From: a virus
Reading direction: 5' to 3' (one strand)
Length of the DNA: 21,836 bases
IMG/VR virus record: IMGVR_UViG_3300007276_000355
Span: 1-21,836 of that record
Positions 516 through 12,488 of this stretch are shown here, piece by piece. Below the pieces are notes generated by a model. The model saw only the letters and a list, made by a program, of their open reading frames with translations, did no database searches and had not been told where the DNA came from. The stretch's first letter is position 1. Every line of letters starts with the position of its first letter. Position numbers and translations under genes: made by a program.

Positions 516-685
516 TGGCTACACAAGTAGTAGTGAGGGTGCGTAACTTCAAGCGTACCCGACACTATGCTCAGTGTGTCGAGCGTGGGCGTACCCCACG
601 AATTGAATACCATACATTCTATATCCGTAACCTAACGTGGGACGTGTCCCACACTACAACAAAGAGAGATACATACTATGTCTAA
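515..685 (+). CDS. Small basic protein, GTG start (56 aa), uncharacterised
   Basis: This open frame begins with a GTG that shares one base with the preceding TAG stop and ends eight bases inside the next gene. It would encode 56 residues beginning VATQVVVRVRNFKRTRHYAQ. The codons match the style of the neighbours (many CGT, AAC, AAG, ACC, TTC), and the product alternates hydrophobic and charged residues as expected for beta strands, so it looks coding rather than random. Against it, there is no clear Shine-Dalgarno before the GTG, and its last third covers the 26-bp repeat at 633-658, which may be a regulatory site instead. If it is not a gene, this is a 162-base leader to the ATPase gene. 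I do not recognise the family. Confidence 0.45.
   Translation: MATQVVVRVRNFKRTRHYAQCVERGRTPRIEYHTFYIRNLTWDVSHTTTKRDTYYV
633..658 (+). promoter_or_regulatory. Repeat/palindrome element, copy 1, upstream of AAA+ gene
   Basis: First of two exact 26-base copies (the other is at 3335-3360). It contains the perfect inverted repeat GTGGGACGTGTCCCAC at 637-652. The element ends 20 bases before the ATG at 678. It could be an operator, or an RNA hairpin (6-bp stem, CGUG loop) in the 5' leader. No known regulator can be assigned. Confidence 0.6.
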
Positions 686-1742
686 CTTATACGCAACATC
701 ACTCGACCAAGCTACTAACCTAGTAGCAACTATAGGCCACCAACGTACTGTCCTAGTCCAAGGGCACATGGGGTGTGGCAAGTCATCAATGCTCAAGGTG
801 TTACAGGAGCGCTTCCCTGACCACCACGCGTGTTACTTTGACTGTACCACCAAGGACTTAGGCGACATAAGCATACCGTCACTCAACACTGACGAGGGGT
901 ACGTCAAGTACCTACCGAACGAAGAGTTCGGACTACACACAGGCAAGCCCGTTATCCTGATGGTCGATGAGTTCGGCAAGGCTAACCCCGCTGTCAAGAA
1001 CGCGTTGCTACGTGACATGTTGGAGCGTGACCGCTTCCCCGAGGGTAGCATCATCTTCGCTACCACTAACCTAGGTGCTGAGGGTGTAGGCGACTTACTG
1101 CCTCCCCATGCACGTAACCGTCTCACTGTAGTAGAGATGCGCAAGCCTGACTCTACCGAGTGGATCGAGTGGGGTATCAACAACCGCATACACCCATCCG
1201 TATTGGGTTTCGTCAAGGACTTCCCGCAGACTATGCAGAGCTTCCAAGAAGTTACACAGCCGGACGACAATCCGTATATCTTTCACCCCAAACAACAACG
1301 CGCCGCCTTCATCACTCCGCGCTCTCTCGAAGCAGCTAGTGACATACTTCAAGCACGTGAGTACCTTGACGACAATACGTTGACAGGTGCGCTATGCGGT
1401 ACCATCGGTGCCCGTGGTGCAATGGACATGATGGCCTTCGTCAAACTGGCTGACCAACTACCGACACTGGAGTCTATCAAGCAAGACCCCGCCAACGCCA
1501 CAGTGCCTACCTCCGCCTCCGCTGTATGCATGGTGGTGTACCGTGCTGTGAGTATGGTCGAGCGTGACTGGGTAGATTCGTGGATGACCTACATACGTAG
1601 GCTAGACAAGGAAGCTCAAGGCTTGTTCGTCAACTGTATACGTGCCAGTAACTACGGTAAGCGTGACATGATTATGCAGTCCAAGAACTACGGTACGTGG
1701 GCTGTCGAGAATAACTATATGTTTGCGGCGGATAAGAAATGA
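678..1742 (+). CDS. MoxR-type AAA+ ATPase
   Basis: A 354-residue single-domain AAA+ protein. The Walker A motif GHMGCGKSS lies at residues 29-37, Walker B with VDEF at about 96-99 (D97, E98), and a sensor-1-like segment IIFATTNLG around residues 125-133, followed by an R-rich lid region. MoxR ATPases work with a VWA-domain partner as ATP-driven remodelling or metal-insertion-like machines. The VWA/metallopeptidase protein is encoded two genes downstream, so the pair probably acts together in the host cytoplasm, on an unknown target. The start at 678 follows a weak purine-rich AAAGAGAGA about 10 bases upstream and lies just after the palindromic repeat at 633-658. The stop overlaps the next gene in an ATGA. 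Family assignment is firm; the function in the phage cycle is unknown. Confidence 0.9.
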   Translation: MSNLYATSLDQATNLVATIGHQRTVLVQGHMGCGKSSMLKVLQERFPDHHACYFDCTTKDLGDISIPSLNTDEGYVKYLPNEEFGLHTGKPVILMVDEFGKANPAVKNALLRDMLERDRFPEGSIIFATTNLGAEGVGDLLPPHARNRLTVVEMRKPDSTEWIEWGINNRIHPSVLGFVKDFPQTMQSFQEVTQPDDNPYIFHPKQQRAAFITPRSLEAASDILQAREYLDDNTLTGALCGTIGARGAMDMMAFVKLADQLPTLESIKQDPANATVPTSASAVCMVVYRAVSMVERDWVDSWMTYIRRLDKEAQGLFVNCIRASNYGKRDMIMQSKNYGTWAVENNYMFAADKK

Positions 1743-1933
1743 AGATAACTAGAAGCGAACTACTACAGCTAAGACTACATCGTAGTAAGTTCAAGACCGC
1801 AGGCAAGTATGACATCCGAGAGGTCAAGGGTGACTATAAACACCCCGATGACATATTCGGGGCACGCCCCAACAAGGTGGGCAGGCAACGTAAACTAAAT
1901 GACAGGAGAGTAGACCATGCTAAGCATAGGTAA
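1739..1933 (+). CDS. Small basic hypothetical protein (64 aa)
   Basis: Starts in an ATGA overlap with the ATPase gene and ends 17 bases inside the VWA gene, so it is tightly wedged between the two partners. The product is very rich in Lys and Arg (for example KVGRQRKLNDRRVDHAKHR at the C-terminus) and has no membrane segment. Such a small basic protein could bind nucleic acid or act as an adaptor of the ATPase/VWA pair, but nothing in the sequence shows this. I do not recognise the family. The overlaps on both sides support it being a real gene. Confidence 0.65.
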   Translation: MKITRSELLQLRLHRSKFKTAGKYDIREVKGDYKHPDDIFGARPNKVGRQRKLNDRRVDHAKHR

Positions 1934-3107
1934 CCAACTCACAGCAGAGCAGCGACTATCCAAAGCGGTAGTTGCTATCATGGGCAACGACAAGTATATA
2001 GCCCTATCAGGTGTACTGATGATCGGCGAGAAGTCTATATGCGACGACGTACCTACCGCATGTACTAACGGACGTGACGAGATGTATGGGCGTAGCTTCG
2101 TAGCCGGTCTGACTGACGCAGAGCTACGGTTTCTAGTCCTACACGAGAACTACCACAAGCTGTATCGTCATCTGACAACGTGGCGTCACTTGTATGACGA
2201 TAACCCCCAGCTATCTAACATGGCGTGTGACTACGTTATCAATCAGAAGATAGCCGACGACAACCACGATGGGTTCGCCACTGTTATTGATGGCGCACTG
2301 CTCGACGACAAGTACCGTGGTATGGATACCGCGCAGGTGTACAACCTACTCAAGCAGGAGCAGGACTCAAATGACGCATCTCAGTCCCTTGACGGCGGTG
2401 AGCCTATGGACTCACATGACTGGGAGGGTGCGCAAGAACTGTCCGAGCCTGAGAAGCAAGAGCTTGCACGTGATATTGATGAGGCTATACGTCAAGGTGC
2501 TATGGCCGCAGGTAAGATGGGCAAGGGCAGTCGTGACCTAGATGACCTACTGACTCCACAGGTTGACTGGCGTGAGGTGTTGCGTGAGTTTGTACAGAAC
2601 ACGTGTGCAGGTAATGACTACGCTACGTATGCTCGCCCCAACCGCCGCCTCATGTCGCAGGGTATTATCATGCCTAGTGGTGTCAGTGATCAGGTAGGTG
2701 AGCTAGTCATAGCTGTTGACACGTCTGGTTCTATTGGTCAAGCCCCGCTGTCTGTGTTCCTAACCGAGGTCAAGGGTATATGCGATACGGTCAAGCCTGA
2801 CAAGGTACGCCTGTTGTATTGGGGTAGTAGTGTAGTTGGTGACGAGTCGTATGAGATGCACGAGTTGGATGACCTAACCAAGTCTACCAAGCCTATGGGT
2901 GGAGGTGGTACCAATGTAGAGTGTGTGACTGACTATATGACTGAGCACGCTATCAAACCACAAGCGTGTGTCGTGTTGACTGACGGCCATTTATACGCAG
3001 GTTGGGGTCAGTGGACATGTCCTGTATTATGGACAGTGTTAGACAACAAGCACGCATCACCAGACGTCGGTACGTGTGTACACATCCAATCAGGAGATAT
3101 GTCATGA
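1917..3107 (+). CDS. VWA/metallopeptidase-like protein (DUF2201-type), MoxR partner
   Basis: A 396-residue two-part protein. The N-terminal part has a zincin motif HENYH (H76, E77, H80) inside LHENYHKLYRHL, as in the metallopeptidase-like domain of DUF2201 proteins. The middle (about residues 145-225) is acidic and helical. The C-terminal part is a von Willebrand factor A fold with a MIDAS site: D-T-S-G-S from D268, GGGGTNVE around residue 333, and VVLTDGHLYAGWG further on. VWA domains bind ligands through a divalent metal, and with a MoxR ATPase they form chelatase-like remodelling complexes. Translation likely starts at 1917, preceded by AGGAG at 1904-1908. The stop overlaps the next gene (ATGA). 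Both the HExxH and MIDAS residues are intact, so it appears functional; the substrate is unknown. Confidence 0.88.
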   Translation: MLSIGNQLTAEQRLSKAVVAIMGNDKYIALSGVLMIGEKSICDDVPTACTNGRDEMYGRSFVAGLTDAELRFLVLHENYHKLYRHLTTWRHLYDDNPQLSNMACDYVINQKIADDNHDGFATVIDGALLDDKYRGMDTAQVYNLLKQEQDSNDASQSLDGGEPMDSHDWEGAQELSEPEKQELARDIDEAIRQGAMAAGKMGKGSRDLDDLLTPQVDWREVLREFVQNTCAGNDYATYARPNRRLMSQGIIMPSGVSDQVGELVIAVDTSGSIGQAPLSVFLTEVKGICDTVKPDKVRLLYWGSSVVGDESYEMHELDDLTKSTKPMGGGGTNVECVTDYMTEHAIKPQACVVLTDGHLYAGWGQWTCPVLWTVLDNKHASPDVGTCVHIQSGDMS

Positions 3108-3337
3108 GTGAAGAATACGGGCGTTATGGGAAAAAATTTCCACATAGAAATAGGCTACCTGTCGGAGAGTTCAGCAGTTCCACAGAACTACGTATGGAGT
3201 GGAGTGAGGCCGTCAACACGATGGAGGCACTGGTATCTTTTTATGACGACTACTGCCAAGGCGACCAAAGCCTAGAGCACGACAGGCAAGACTACGAATC
3301 AGTCCAGAACGCATGGGCACGAATCAAACAAGGATAA
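3104..3337 (+). CDS. Small acidic hypothetical protein (77 aa)
   Basis: The open frame extends back to an ATG at 3002, but that part lies inside the VWA gene. The start at 3104 overlaps the VWA stop as ATGA and has AGGAG at 3092-3096, so it is preferred. The product starts MSEEYGRYGKKFPHRNRLP and continues as a helical, acidic sequence (MEWSEAVNTMEALVSFYDDY). No domain recognised. Its TAA stop lies inside the second copy of the 26-base repeat (3335-3360). Confidence 0.65.
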   Translation: MSEEYGRYGKKFPHRNRLPVGEFSSSTELRMEWSEAVNTMEALVSFYDDYCQGDQSLEHDRQDYESVQNAWARIKQG

Positions 3338-3360
3338 CGTGGGACGTGTCCCACACTACA
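3335..3360 (+). promoter_or_regulatory. Repeat/palindrome element, copy 2
   Basis: Exact 26-base copy of 633-658, with the palindrome GTGGGACGTGTCCCAC at 3339-3354. It ends 19 bases before the ATG at 3379, almost the same distance as copy 1 to its gene. Its first three bases are the stop codon of the preceding gene. The shared position and sequence in otherwise dissimilar surroundings argue for a cis-acting control site. Confidence 0.6.
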
Positions 3361-3378
3361 CAATCAGAGGATAGCACC

Positions 3379-3717
3379 ATGAGTAAAACAAAGAACAAAG
3401 TAACCAATCGAGTAGCACGTGAGTACGTACAAAACTGTAGACCTTTCGAGGGTAGCAACATCTTTGGCATAGTACGCCACACTGACACAAGCGCACGATA
3501 TGTCGTGTATTCGTATGGTACACACTGGCCACTGTGGATACGTGAGGAGGGCGTGTGGTATGAGAACGTCAGTAAGTATGGCCCTACCACATCTAAGCAC
3601 AAGACGATGACCAACCCCCACGTCGAAAGCTCTACCCCTATGGAAGTGGACGACATGATTACTATAGCCAACCACGGTATCGTTGGCCTGTCACTAGGTA
3701 TGGGAGAAGAGCAATGA
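3379..3717 (+). CDS. Conserved-looking phage protein of unknown function (112 aa)
   Basis: The frame is open from an ATG at 3313, but that start lies in the previous gene and would read through the palindromic repeat. The ATG at 3379, with AGAGGA about ten bases upstream, is the better start. The product has a block YVVYSYGTHWPLWI followed by GVWYENVSKYGPTTSKHKT and ends in a short hydrophobic stretch (IANHGIVGLSLGMG). The pattern 'VVYSYG-H-PL ... WYEN-KY--TTSKH' recalls small phage proteins annotated only as domains of unknown function (possibly DUF8033, from memory). It is probably a small beta-rich cytoplasmic protein. The stop overlaps the next start as ATGA. Confidence 0.7.
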   Translation: MSKTKNKVTNRVAREYVQNCRPFEGSNIFGIVRHTDTSARYVVYSYGTHWPLWIREEGVWYENVSKYGPTTSKHKTMTNPHVESSTPMEVDDMITIANHGIVGLSLGMGEEQ

Positions 3718-4670
3718 GTAAGTATGATAACTTCCACCCCCCTGTAGATAGTCTACGTGATGCGCTCTCAACAATTCCCAAGCCACCGATGTGGAGCAGG
3801 TGGGATACCATGATGACACTATATATAAAGAACATAACCGCTAACACGGCGCTCAAGGTAGGTACAGACCAGAACAAGTTCTTCGTGTACTACGAAGGTG
3901 ACGAACAAGCCAGTGGGCGGATAGATATACGTGGTATGCAGGACAGGTATGGTGCTCCTACTGACCCTAAGCTCGTCGTGTTCGCACGTACCCTAGAGAA
4001 TAACAAGTACAGCAGCGGCGACCTACAATACTCGAAGGCCACTACTCGCATAGATATAGCCATAAAGAACATTAAGCGATACTGCACTCCGTTGGTAACT
4101 ACAGAGTTACGGTATACACACAGGGCGGGTTACCGTGCTACGGCCAACCACTACAAACAAGTGATACAAAGACAATACCAAGGCGCACTGGAGGATTTAA
4201 ATATCGAGAGTAGGGATGCGTATAAGTGTTTTAGGGAACAATTTACCCTACCCCCTTTAGTCCAGTATTTTTCTGATGTACGTAACCTAGACATGGACTT
4301 TGGTAATGTAAAACACCAGGTAGACACGCTGCTCCTATCCGTAGATTCAGTCAAAGCTGAGAGGAAAGACATAGCGGAGCGCAGCGTTGTGTTCTGTCGT
4401 ATACGCACCGTAGCAGGGGAACAGCTATGCGAGTTATTGAAATTGGGATCAGAGGCGGACGAATGGCGCGAAAAGGGCGTCACTGATGAGGTACCTACAG
4501 TATGCGGTATAGATTCCTTATCCCCACGTATGATAGAGAAGTTAGCTATACTTAACACACTAGAGAGGGGCGAGTACCTACACAATGTAGGATACAAAAG
4601 TCCGACAGAAAATATATTCTTTGTTGAGAACGGAGTAACCGAAGAGGTGGGAGTGCCCATTGGCTGTTAG
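3714..4670 (+). CDS. Hypothetical protein (318 aa)
   Basis: ATGA overlap with the preceding gene. The N-terminal third is beta-rich (TLYIKNITANTALKVG, KFFVYYEGDEQASGRIDI), the middle is helical with many charged residues (RIDIAIKNIKRYCTPLV, YKQVIQRQYQGALEDL), and the C-terminal part contains more helices before ending EEVGVPIGC. No signal peptide, membrane segment or catalytic motif is visible. I do not recognise the family. A large minus-strand frame at 4151-4660 is a shadow of this gene. Its place in the operon, before small accessory genes, does not indicate a role. Confidence 0.75.
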   Translation: MSKYDNFHPPVDSLRDALSTIPKPPMWSRWDTMMTLYIKNITANTALKVGTDQNKFFVYYEGDEQASGRIDIRGMQDRYGAPTDPKLVVFARTLENNKYSSGDLQYSKATTRIDIAIKNIKRYCTPLVTTELRYTHRAGYRATANHYKQVIQRQYQGALEDLNIESRDAYKCFREQFTLPPLVQYFSDVRNLDMDFGNVKHQVDTLLLSVDSVKAERKDIAERSVVFCRIRTVAGEQLCELLKLGSEADEWREKGVTDEVPTVCGIDSLSPRMIEKLAILNTLERGEYLHNVGYKSPTENIFFVENGVTEEVGVPIGC

Positions 4671-5089: not shown

Positions 5090-5243
5090 GGCTGCTATAG
5101 AATCAGGTATACACTTCGGGTACATGAAGGCGCACAAACATACGGACACCCCCAACCGTGCGCAGTTAGAGGGGGAGATAGAGCGTGAGATTTGGAACGC
5201 TATTTATGAAGTATTTAAATTTGAGGAAGACCTAGATGAATAA
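5061..5243 (+). CDS. Small helical hypothetical protein, GTG start (60 aa)
   Basis: Starts at a GTG with a strong GAGGAGGG Shine-Dalgarno immediately upstream, located inside the end of the membrane-protein gene. The product begins MIAKKRKILEAAIESGIHFG, then has a His-rich link (MKAHKHTDT) and an acidic helix (EREIWNAIYEVFKFEEDLDE). It ends inside the start of the following gene (ATG at 5236). The family is not recognised; the ribosome binding site and overlaps support it being translated. Confidence 0.6.
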   Translation: MIAKKRKILEAAIESGIHFGYMKAHKHTDTPNRAQLEGEIEREIWNAIYEVFKFEEDLDE

Positions 5244-5739
5244 GCAAGAGATTAAAGATAAGATCGAAGACGCACACGCTACTGCTGATAGACTATTGAC
5301 GCAGGAAGAGCTTAGAACTAAATGGAATAAGGTGCATGGATATATGAACGTAGACTGCGCCGTTATGACGCGTTGGCATATGTTGGGATTCTGTAGCTTA
5401 CTGACCCTAGCTGTGTGGTCACCCTTCTCTGATGCGGCATGTAGCATGAAGACGGACAGTTGGGGCAACAGCAAGTACACATGCCACGATGGTAACTCTG
5501 GTACGTTGACTACTGACTCATGGGGTACTACACGTGACAGCCGTACGGGTACTTCGTACCAGACTGACGCTTGGGGAACTACTCGTGGCTCTGATGGTAC
5601 TAGCTTTAAGACTGACGCATGGGGCACAACTCGCTACGACGATGGCACTACGTCACAGAAAGATGCTTGGGGTACTACACGTTTCAGTGATGGTACAAGC
5701 TGCCAGACAGATAACTGGGGCACAACGAGGTGTAACTAA
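5236..5739 (+). CDS. Repeat protein with internal signal-like segment and six (T/K)D-x-W-G repeats
   Basis: 167 residues if read from the ATG at 5236, which has GAGGAA eight bases upstream. Residues 1-36 are a charged helix (MNKQEIKDKIEDAHATADRL). Then comes a signal-peptide-like stretch: a basic n-region MTRWH from M44, a hydrophobic core LGFCSLLTLAVW, and SDAAC at 65-69 where cleavage could occur. From residue 73 on, the protein consists of six units with the core (T/K)D-x-W-G-(N/T)-(S/T)-(K/R), spaced about 16 residues with Gly/Ser/Thr/Asp-rich linkers. A start at M37 (5344, with AAGGTG upstream) or M44 (5365) would give a normal exported protein, so translation could begin there. The likely location is periplasmic or extracellular. 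The function is unknown; similar W-G repeat proteins occur in bacteria. Confidence 0.75.
   Translation: MNKQEIKDKIEDAHATADRLLTQEELRTKWNKVHGYMNVDCAVMTRWHMLGFCSLLTLAVWSPFSDAACSMKTDSWGNSKYTCHDGNSGTLTTDSWGTTRDSRTGTSYQTDAWGTTRGSDGTSFKTDAWGTTRYDDGTTSQKDAWGTTRFSDGTSCQTDNWGTTRCN
5452..5736 (+). repeat. Degenerate 48-nt tandem repeats encoding W-G-T-T-R units
   Basis: Six units whose protein core is (T/K)D-x-W-G; the central ones are 48 bases (16 codons), for example TDAWGTTRGSDGTSFK. The DNA of the units differs mainly at synonymous positions while the W-G-T-T-R core is kept, so selection acts on the protein. Confidence 0.8.
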
Positions 5740-11864: not shown

Positions 11865-12243
11865 TGCGGAGAAGCTGACGGAGACCTATCTAAAGATAAG
11901 AGATAAACGGTCTAAGATGTCCGCAGAGTTTAAGGAAAAGGACAAGGCACTTACTGCCCAAATGGATAAAGTAAAACGCGCACTACTAGATTACTGTGCT
12001 GAGCATGGACTAGATAGCGTTAAAACTCCTGCGGGACTGTTTTACAGGTCAGTTAAGACTAGATACTGGACGAGCGATTGGGAATCTATGTATAAGTTTG
12101 TTCTAGAGAACGAGATACCTGAGTTCTTCGACAAGCGTCTTAACCAAGCCAGTGTGAAGCAGTACTTGGAGGAAAACCCCGACCTCGTACCTAAAGGTCT
12201 TAATGTAGATTCAGAATACGCAATAGCGGTGAGGAAGAAATAA
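11848..12243 (+). CDS. Conserved phage protein of unknown function (131 aa)
   Basis: GAGGTT lies before the ATG. The first 65 residues are a coiled-coil-like helix (ETYLKIRDKRSKMSAEFKEK); the second half contains SVKTRYWTSDWESMYKF and ends with LEENPDLVPKGLNVDSEYAI. The combination of an N-terminal helix with the 'VKTRYW...DW.SMYKF' and 'ENPDLVPKGLN' blocks is one I recognise as widespread in phage replication operons, always annotated as hypothetical. Its position between SNF2 helicase and SSB suggests a replication or recombination accessory role. No catalytic motif is present. Confidence 0.8.
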   Translation: MSDVVNAEKLTETYLKIRDKRSKMSAEFKEKDKALTAQMDKVKRALLDYCAEHGLDSVKTPAGLFYRSVKTRYWTSDWESMYKFVLENEIPEFFDKRLNQASVKQYLEENPDLVPKGLNVDSEYAIAVRKK

Positions 12244-12488
12244 TGGAACAATTTGTAACTACTGAGGACGTGGCAAAACATTTTCAAGTGTCGATTGCTA
12301 CTGTCCGTGCATGGGTTCGTAAGGGTGACATACCTGAAGACACCTACGCGCACTTCGGTAACACGTACCGGTTTAAGTTAAGCTCTGTAGTTGAGTCTCT
12401 GTTAAAGAATAAGTCTGATGCAGATGATGCGCAAGAAGTGGACTCTCTGGTCGAAGACCTGTCGTGGGATGCAGGAGAGGATGTATAG
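12243..12488 (+). CDS. Excisionase/MerR-like HTH DNA-binding protein
   Basis: 81 residues; the ATG shares a base with the preceding TAA and has GAGGAAG upstream. The N-terminal part, TTEDVAKHFQVSIATVRAWV followed by RKGDIPEDTYAHFGNTYRFK, is a typical winged helix-turn-helix of the excisionase (HTH_17) type: helix-turn-helix, wing, then the start of a further helix. The C-terminal 25 residues are acidic and probably disordered. Such proteins bend DNA in recombination or act as regulators. No integrase is in the window, so a role in excision cannot be claimed; it may regulate this operon or bind the origin. Confidence 0.8.
   Translation: MEQFVTTEDVAKHFQVSIATVRAWVRKGDIPEDTYAHFGNTYRFKLSSVVESLLKNKSDADDAQEVDSLVEDLSWDAGEDV

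Follow-up and report, generated by a model that had tools for sequence, protein, structure and literature searches.

Dispersed palindromes in a phage early operon as candidate operators of a fast-evolving regulator

What is the role of a short sequence that stands, letter for letter, before two genes of the same viral operon? The question is raised by the complete virus record IMGVR_UViG_3300007276_000355, analyzed over its whole length of 21,836 bases and referred to here as the window. The 26 bases at 633–658 recur at 3335–3360 with 26/26 identity (TAACGTGGGACGTGTCCCACACTACA), and this is the sole exact direct repeat of such length in the window. Each copy encloses a 16-mer (637–652 and 3339–3354) that forms a 7+2+7 palindrome, GTGGGAC-GT-GTCCCAC, with a central GT that is not self-complementary and with oriented flanks (TAAC / ACTACA). 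A first-pass annotation of this DNA had reported both the identical copies and the 16-base-pair (bp) palindrome inside them, and it was exact on each count. Its gaps of 20 and 19 bases to the start codons were counted to the A itself; the near-equal spacing stands, but 19 and 18 bases, respectively, separate the 3′ ends of the elements from the start codons at 678 and 3379. As argued below from sequence comparison, the repeats are probably operators of a phage regulator, termed c26, which is the product of the first gene of the operon.

The two copies are the end of a longer series. Contig G001 (the same as L115/L217/L218), with a length of 30.9 kb, is 99.95% identical to the window over a shared 18 kb and reaches 1,560 bases further left. 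Its array comprises five copies, at 148, 689, 1125, 2193, and 4895, and the window holds the last two (copies four and five). The first-pass annotation had seen no further copy, which holds within the window, where a search of both strands with up to three mismatches returned two places only, each read on both strands (shuffled controls: mean 0.13 matches, maximum 1), but at least three more copies lie just left of the contig end. A chance origin of the repeat is ruled out by these shuffles and by the control palindromes described below. Among the window's close relatives, L004 has five copies and L012 has four. The consensus of this clade is TAACGTGGGAC-NN-GTCCCACACTA, always in gene direction, with NN being GT, AC, AT, or GC; the exception is one L004 copy with a single arm mismatch.

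More distant relatives were recruited through their ATPase and VWA proteins, and repeated palindromes were scanned without a prior motif. Relatives with 53–75% identical ATPases possess arrays of this kind at corresponding positions, with about 5–13 copies per genome, and almost every one has a palindrome of its own. Within a genome the arms are constant, while the 2–4 central bases are often free. Arm types include GTTAGTG/CACTAAC, GTTAGGG, GTTAGTC, TTTAGGG, TTTACGG, GTATACA, GTCTACA, and GTTATAAC, as well as TTCGGGC, GATTAGA, GATCAGA, CCTGACC, TTAGGTA, GTAGGGA, and CACTGCG. The palindromes measure 14–20 bp across lineages, and asymmetric conserved flanks occur in the window's clade only. In 18 long records (30–67 kb), the copies are confined to one early/replication region and lie outside the leftward virion genes. 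An orthologous spot can be kept while its palindrome is replaced. For instance, the sequence '..gggcacgaatcaaacaagg[c]taac' precedes GTGGGACGTGTCCCAC in the window but GATCAGACCCATCTGATC in L117, and at the spot of copy five L117 has GATCAGA..TCTGATC after near-identical flanking DNA.

Two distant genomes are of note in their own right. L310 (Rhizobium phage RHph_TM3_14A, 15000–60889), a cultured, syntenic distant relative, has its own dispersed palindrome, with 48 copies of GTTACC-N5/6-GGTAAC (≤1 mismatch) that occur in the early as well as the late regions and also within genes on either strand; for six control palindromes the count is 0–1. L160/G018 matches c26 only marginally (E 0.0038); it lacks an array, and one GTTAGTG site stands ahead of a conserved gene.

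The placement of the sites was compared with random positions for 126 sites in 16 genomes. Forty-seven of them (37% vs. 4% at random) end 11–36 nucleotides (nt) before a conserved gene start, and 14 (11% vs. 66%) lie inside conserved genes. The first-pass annotation had named two outcomes that would speak against a functional element, and neither is seen: copies are not strewn at random inside genes, and the element or its lineage-specific counterpart is present upstream of the orthologous genes in relatives. It had also taken the conserved sequence together with the constant distance to the ATG as the sign of a cis-acting element. The role as an element stands, but the matching distances arise because the sites fill the short gap between a stop codon and the following ribosome-binding site. 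In the 60 nt upstream of gene-start sites, there is no excess of TATAAT-like boxes (12 vs. 16.7 in shuffles).

A near-consensus sigma70 promoter (TTGACA-N16/17-TATAAT) occurs in most loci 1.2–1.7 kb past the start of the first operon gene, and in most loci a site follows 37–131 nt downstream of the −10 box of this early promoter. In the window's clade the site starts 54–58 nt past the −10 hexamer (TTGACA-N17-TATAAT), as seen at L115:607–635 (site at 689) and L012:3874–3902 (site at 3956). A site is also found within 350 nt upstream of 56 of the 59 c26 genes, mostly at −110 to −175, and wherever a c26 promoter is detectable this site is usually upstream of it, some 10–60 bp from the −35 hexamer. 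Two more repeat types, GATACCAGTTnnTnnnnnnGCG.. and (T)AATGTTC/AATGTTAC, are present in the leader that separates c26 from the early promoter, as read at L012:3322–3410 and 3440–3520, L044:8100–8460, and L040:3150–3330.

The candidate regulator, c26, is a fast-evolving protein present in 131 loci, of which 113 have at least three copies of one palindrome; the remaining 18 are for the most part short or truncated contigs. The c26 gene of the window's clade lies at L012:2515–3126, and its presumed cognate element is TAACGTGGGACGTGTCCCACACTA. Profile searches extend the family to more divergent loci, such as the CACTGCG genome L040, and the gene at the c26 position of L044 (TTTACGG) looks similar by eye. 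In L040 a palindrome (2914–2929) falls within the c26 coding sequence, in the linker before the C-terminal part. A 41-sequence alignment of c26 lacks conserved blocks. No significant match to c26 was found in Pfam or PHROG, including any ParB/KorB-like domain, no relative was found in the PDB by sequence, and the c26 of L082 has no relative in 50,697 phage records. AlphaFold2 gave confident, all-helical models for two members (predicted local distance difference test scores of 90.3 and 89.2), each with a long basic helix at residues ~97–112. The best viral structure match is to an uncharacterised protein (E 0.016). From these searches, c26 is best explained as a new regulator family, unlike anything in the sequence libraries searched.

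The link between c26 and the palindromes comes from their co-variation. Non-redundant c26 proteins were compared in pairs, window by window along the protein, and pairs with the same motif were set against pairs with different motifs. The contrast in identity peaks at residues ~97–112, where it reaches 0.50 at 100–109, and is near zero over most of c26; the partial r is 0.68, against a permutation maximum of 0.29. A first scan had pooled the rare motifs GTAGGGA and TTTAGGG with GTTAGGG, and a repeat with exact classes gives the same peak. When the commonest motif is removed, the peak stays in the same helix (0.29 at 106–115). The ATPase and DUF3150 proteins show a broad background only, with no isolated peak. 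Particular helices go with particular sites. For example, IGA[RK]xND[FLY] is paired with GTTAGTG, IGSKxKD[LI] with most GTTAGGG sites, [DA]DRxAMRLRQD-like helices with sites ending in TACA, GAFKRD with GTTATAAC, and RRGL with the GGG-containing TTCGGGC and GTGGGAC.

Whole arrays have been replaced together with c26. The operon proteins of G006 and G022 are 94–100% identical except for c31 (85%) and c26 (49%), and in c26 the exchange covers the N-terminal two thirds and leaves the C-terminal third almost unchanged. For four of the five sites compared, the 60-nt flank on at least one side is 88–98% identical, yet GTTATAACnnnnGTTATAAC is replaced by TGTATACATATGTATACA; the G006 site at 32213 is still of the G022 type. 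Similar remnants occur elsewhere. G020 (GATTAGA) has one perfect GATCAGA site left, inside the VWA gene, as in its relative L117, and G012 (GTTAGTG) has two perfect TTTACGG sites left, one of them immediately adjacent to a GTTAGTG site of the new type. Palindromes of matched composition, used as controls, have zero occurrences. To judge from these comparisons, each lineage of this family of marine phages rewrote its sites and the key helix of c26 together, such that the phages can apparently change the whole wiring code at once. It is reasonably likely that this new family has a modular, readable recognition helix, that a switch begins with exchange of the DNA-binding part of c26, and that sites are then converted one by one, with the new type arising next to the old or in its place; genomes with mixed arrays would then be caught in mid-switch.

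At the level of sequence, then, the placement of the array, its co-variation with one helix of c26, and the joint replacement of array and regulator are established. The first-pass annotation had suggested an operator of a phage regulator, and this suggestion is well supported now that a candidate regulator is in hand, but it concerns a whole array rather than two paired sites. In the mechanism proposed here, c26 would bind, probably as a dimer, to double-stranded DNA sites of 16–18 bp (sometimes 17 or 20, according to the spacer), and its basic helix at ~97–112 would contact the half-sites. Autoregulation may take place at the site that precedes the c26 promoter. At a sufficient level the protein would repress the early operon from sites immediately past the early promoter and at the borders between genes, as an obstacle to RNA polymerase in the manner of mycobacteriophage repressors at stoperators. 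Such a roadblock is the likeliest mode of action; taken separately, this step is about an even proposition. A possible role is the timed shut-off of early genes and the exclusion of superinfecting kin, rather than lysogeny, since the 18 long relatives are without integrase or resolvase, and diversification of specificity may represent escape from the repressors of relatives. Neither a tyrosine integrase nor a serine resolvase was found in these 18 records, some of which are incomplete, although positive controls were detected (partition genes were not searched for), and relatives of the ATPase are absent from 84,980 prokaryote genomes. Both results make ordinary lysogeny unlikely.

Several observations weigh against c26 as the protein that binds these sites or against its action as a dimeric repressor. 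The window's own contig has no c26, because it and G001 begin to the right of the gene. Foldseek comparison of the c26 models with the PDB gave no match at E ≤ 0.001 and no recognised DNA-binding fold. In a whole-length Mantel test of all loci, the ATPase tracks the motif about as well as c26 does (partial r 0.39 and 0.37, respectively), which is attributed to saturation of whole-length c26 identity. Some pairs with the same motif have unlike helices (L123/L085, and L052 vs. other GTTAGTG phages). In GTTAGTG phages (L082, L246, L306, and others), the spacer length is not uniform even in a single array, with values of 3, 4, and occasionally 5 bp, which is unusual for a rigid dimer. Finally, the site upstream of the c26 −35 hexamer suits an activator as well as a repressor, and every palindrome type could fold as an RNA hairpin. 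As a separate observation on spacers, the arm GTTATAAC is common to L121 and L108 with spacers of 2 and 4 bp, which is likewise hard to fit to a rigid dimer.

The main rival explanation, which is unlikely, is that c26 is an activator or anti-terminator that, bound ahead of its own promoter and at the repeated sites, helps host RNA polymerase to start or continue through the early operon. Where a promoter can be detected, the c26-proximal site is mostly in a position common for activators, and the lack of TATAAT-like enrichment upstream of gene-start sites is contrary to simple promoter occlusion there. In addition, the C-terminus kept across the exchange of specificity could contact a shared partner such as RNA polymerase. 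However, with gene-start sites only 11–36 nt before the ATG, there is no space for a promoter downstream of them, and the main early promoter is so close to consensus that it is hardly in need of activation.

Next to be considered is an RNA role, as the first-pass annotation had done in proposing a hairpin that controls translation. More generally, the repeats could fold into hairpins once the operon is transcribed; a phage protein would recognise them, and they would serve as a translational operator or as a processing or anti-termination signal. The sites do stand just before Shine-Dalgarno sequences, all types have predicted folds of −5.7 to −12.2 kcal/mol with loops of 3–4 nt, loop length varies within some genomes, and many members have an arginine-rich specificity helix, like some RNA-binding peptides. 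Yet 24 of the 31 one-mismatch copies break a pair of the stem, and transitions that keep a wobble pair (7) are not clearly commoner than non-wobble ones (4). Sites upstream of the c26 promoter are also outside its transcript, and it is the stem sequence that is fixed within a genome while the loops are free; most hairpin recognition shows the opposite pattern. A DNA role is favoured over an RNA role on this evidence, and the hairpin explanation is improbable.

The first-pass annotation had also allowed for an operator of a host regulator, with sites that differ since hosts differ. The absence of a relative from the prokaryote genomes leaves room for this idea, but it is very improbable given that palindrome types follow a single helix of a phage-encoded protein and that the near-identical G006 and G022 have different sites, with c26 alone among the compared operon proteins changing in step. 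It is scarcely credible that the palindromes are promoters of a phage single-subunit RNA polymerase or N4-style hairpin promoters, for although the 3′ flank CACACTAYA resembles T7/SP6 promoter cores and N4-like phages encode distant homologues of the ATPase and VWA proteins, other lineages lack that flank, the promoter of the early operon is of the host type, the arms track c26 and not a polymerase, and PF00940 was not found in the 18 long relatives (though control genomes gave no match either).

With c26 preferred as a DNA-binding regulator, the array can be compared with known systems. In cluster A mycobacteriophages (L5, Bxb1, TipsytheTRex), one repressor acts at 20–30 sites, mostly away from promoters, where a block of elongation has been proposed, and the consensus of these stoperators diverges together with the repressor between related phages (PMC9283540, PMC6550527). 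The L5-type sites are asymmetric, 13 bp long, and spread genome-wide in temperate phages, and the repressor binds them as a monomer that has two DNA-binding domains (PMC9283540, PMC6550527). Such sites are oriented with transcription, and the L5 repressor combines an N-terminal HTH with a stoperator domain. The present array works most like this system, with many copies of one site in short intergenic gaps, mostly off promoters, and with a site sequence that co-varies with the regulator between phages. It is nevertheless not a member of the system as defined. Its sites are palindromic (16–18 bp), number about 5–13 per genome, and are restricted to the early operon; searches for an integrase gave none; and c26 has neither a sequence match in the libraries searched nor a close solved structure.

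Palindromic counterparts exist as well. The repressor of phiC31, a temperate Streptomyces phage, is autoregulated and acts at conserved inverted repeats (CIRs), which are palindromic operators of ~17 bp with many intergenic copies. The CIRs are the nearest palindromic analogue; both arrays consist of palindromic intergenic copies, including one upstream of the regulator gene. Replacement of the array across a lineage, with old sites left behind, is not known to have been described for phiC31. The KorA and KorB proteins of plasmid RK2 act in global repression at operators dispersed over one replicon (OA GTTTAGCTAAAC, OB TTTAGCSGCTAAA). These are short palindromes that resemble the GTTAGTG and TTTAGGG types, but c26 is without a ParB/KorB-like domain and its sites are tied to one operon.

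The surroundings of the two copies are summarized in Table 1. The window consists of a rightward early/replication operon and one long leftward gene. Operon content includes an AAA ATPase, a metallopeptidase/VWA protein, DNA polymerase A, an SNF2 helicase, a PD-(D/E)XK nuclease, a primase-like protein, and an SSB-like protein.

Table 1. Coordinates of the two operator copies and of operon genes in the window.
Feature	Position	Strand	Remarks
DUF3150 gene, 3′ part, cut by contig end	3..515	+	L217:1164-2075 matches PF11348; G001 site 1129-1144, 19 nt before start
Putative operator, copy 4	633..658 (palindrome 637-652)	+	Exact repeat; equals G001/L115 2193-2218; 19 nt before ATPase ATG
AAA ATPase gene (phrog_1297), downstream of copy 4	678..1742	+	
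Metallopeptidase/VWA-like gene (DUF2201_N + DUF2201), same operon	1917..3107	+	
Small open reading frame, 78 aa, stop codon overlapping start of copy 5	3101..3337	+	Kept in close relatives (cluster 56)
Putative operator, copy 5	3335..3360 (palindrome 3339-3354)	+	Exact repeat; equals G001/L115 4895-4920; 18 nt before ATG 3379
Gene downstream of copy 5, 112 aa	3379..3717	+	Weak DUF1653 match, below curated cut-off
Conserved operon gene (cluster 4), next after 3379 gene	3714..4670	+	
HTH_17/MerR-like small core operon protein	12243..12488	+	PF12728

The HTH_17 protein was considered as an alternative regulator and rejected, as it is 98% identical between G006 and G022 despite their completely different palindromes. 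When window positions 3361–3717 are compared with L004 (4885 onward) and L010, the gene start behind copy five differs and the DNA before the element is conserved. Because the start of the downstream gene changes among close relatives while the preceding DNA stays, the element marks a cassette boundary. Elsewhere in the window, a tandem 48-bp repeat at 5548–5726, which codes for DGT..TDAWGTTR-like units, lies within a small protein gene (5236–5739).

A joint change of specificity in a regulator and a dozen dispersed sites is an open question for repressor/operator systems in general. In the present phages, little besides the regulator and its sites distinguishes some closely related genomes, and old sites persist in three genomes, so that the order of events becomes readable. 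The ~60 non-redundant pairs of regulator and site also provide a starting table for a protein–DNA recognition code. If c26 represses, phages without detectable lysogeny genes keep and diversify an immunity-like control of their early genes and, if this is true, such control would shape which marine phages co-infect one cell.

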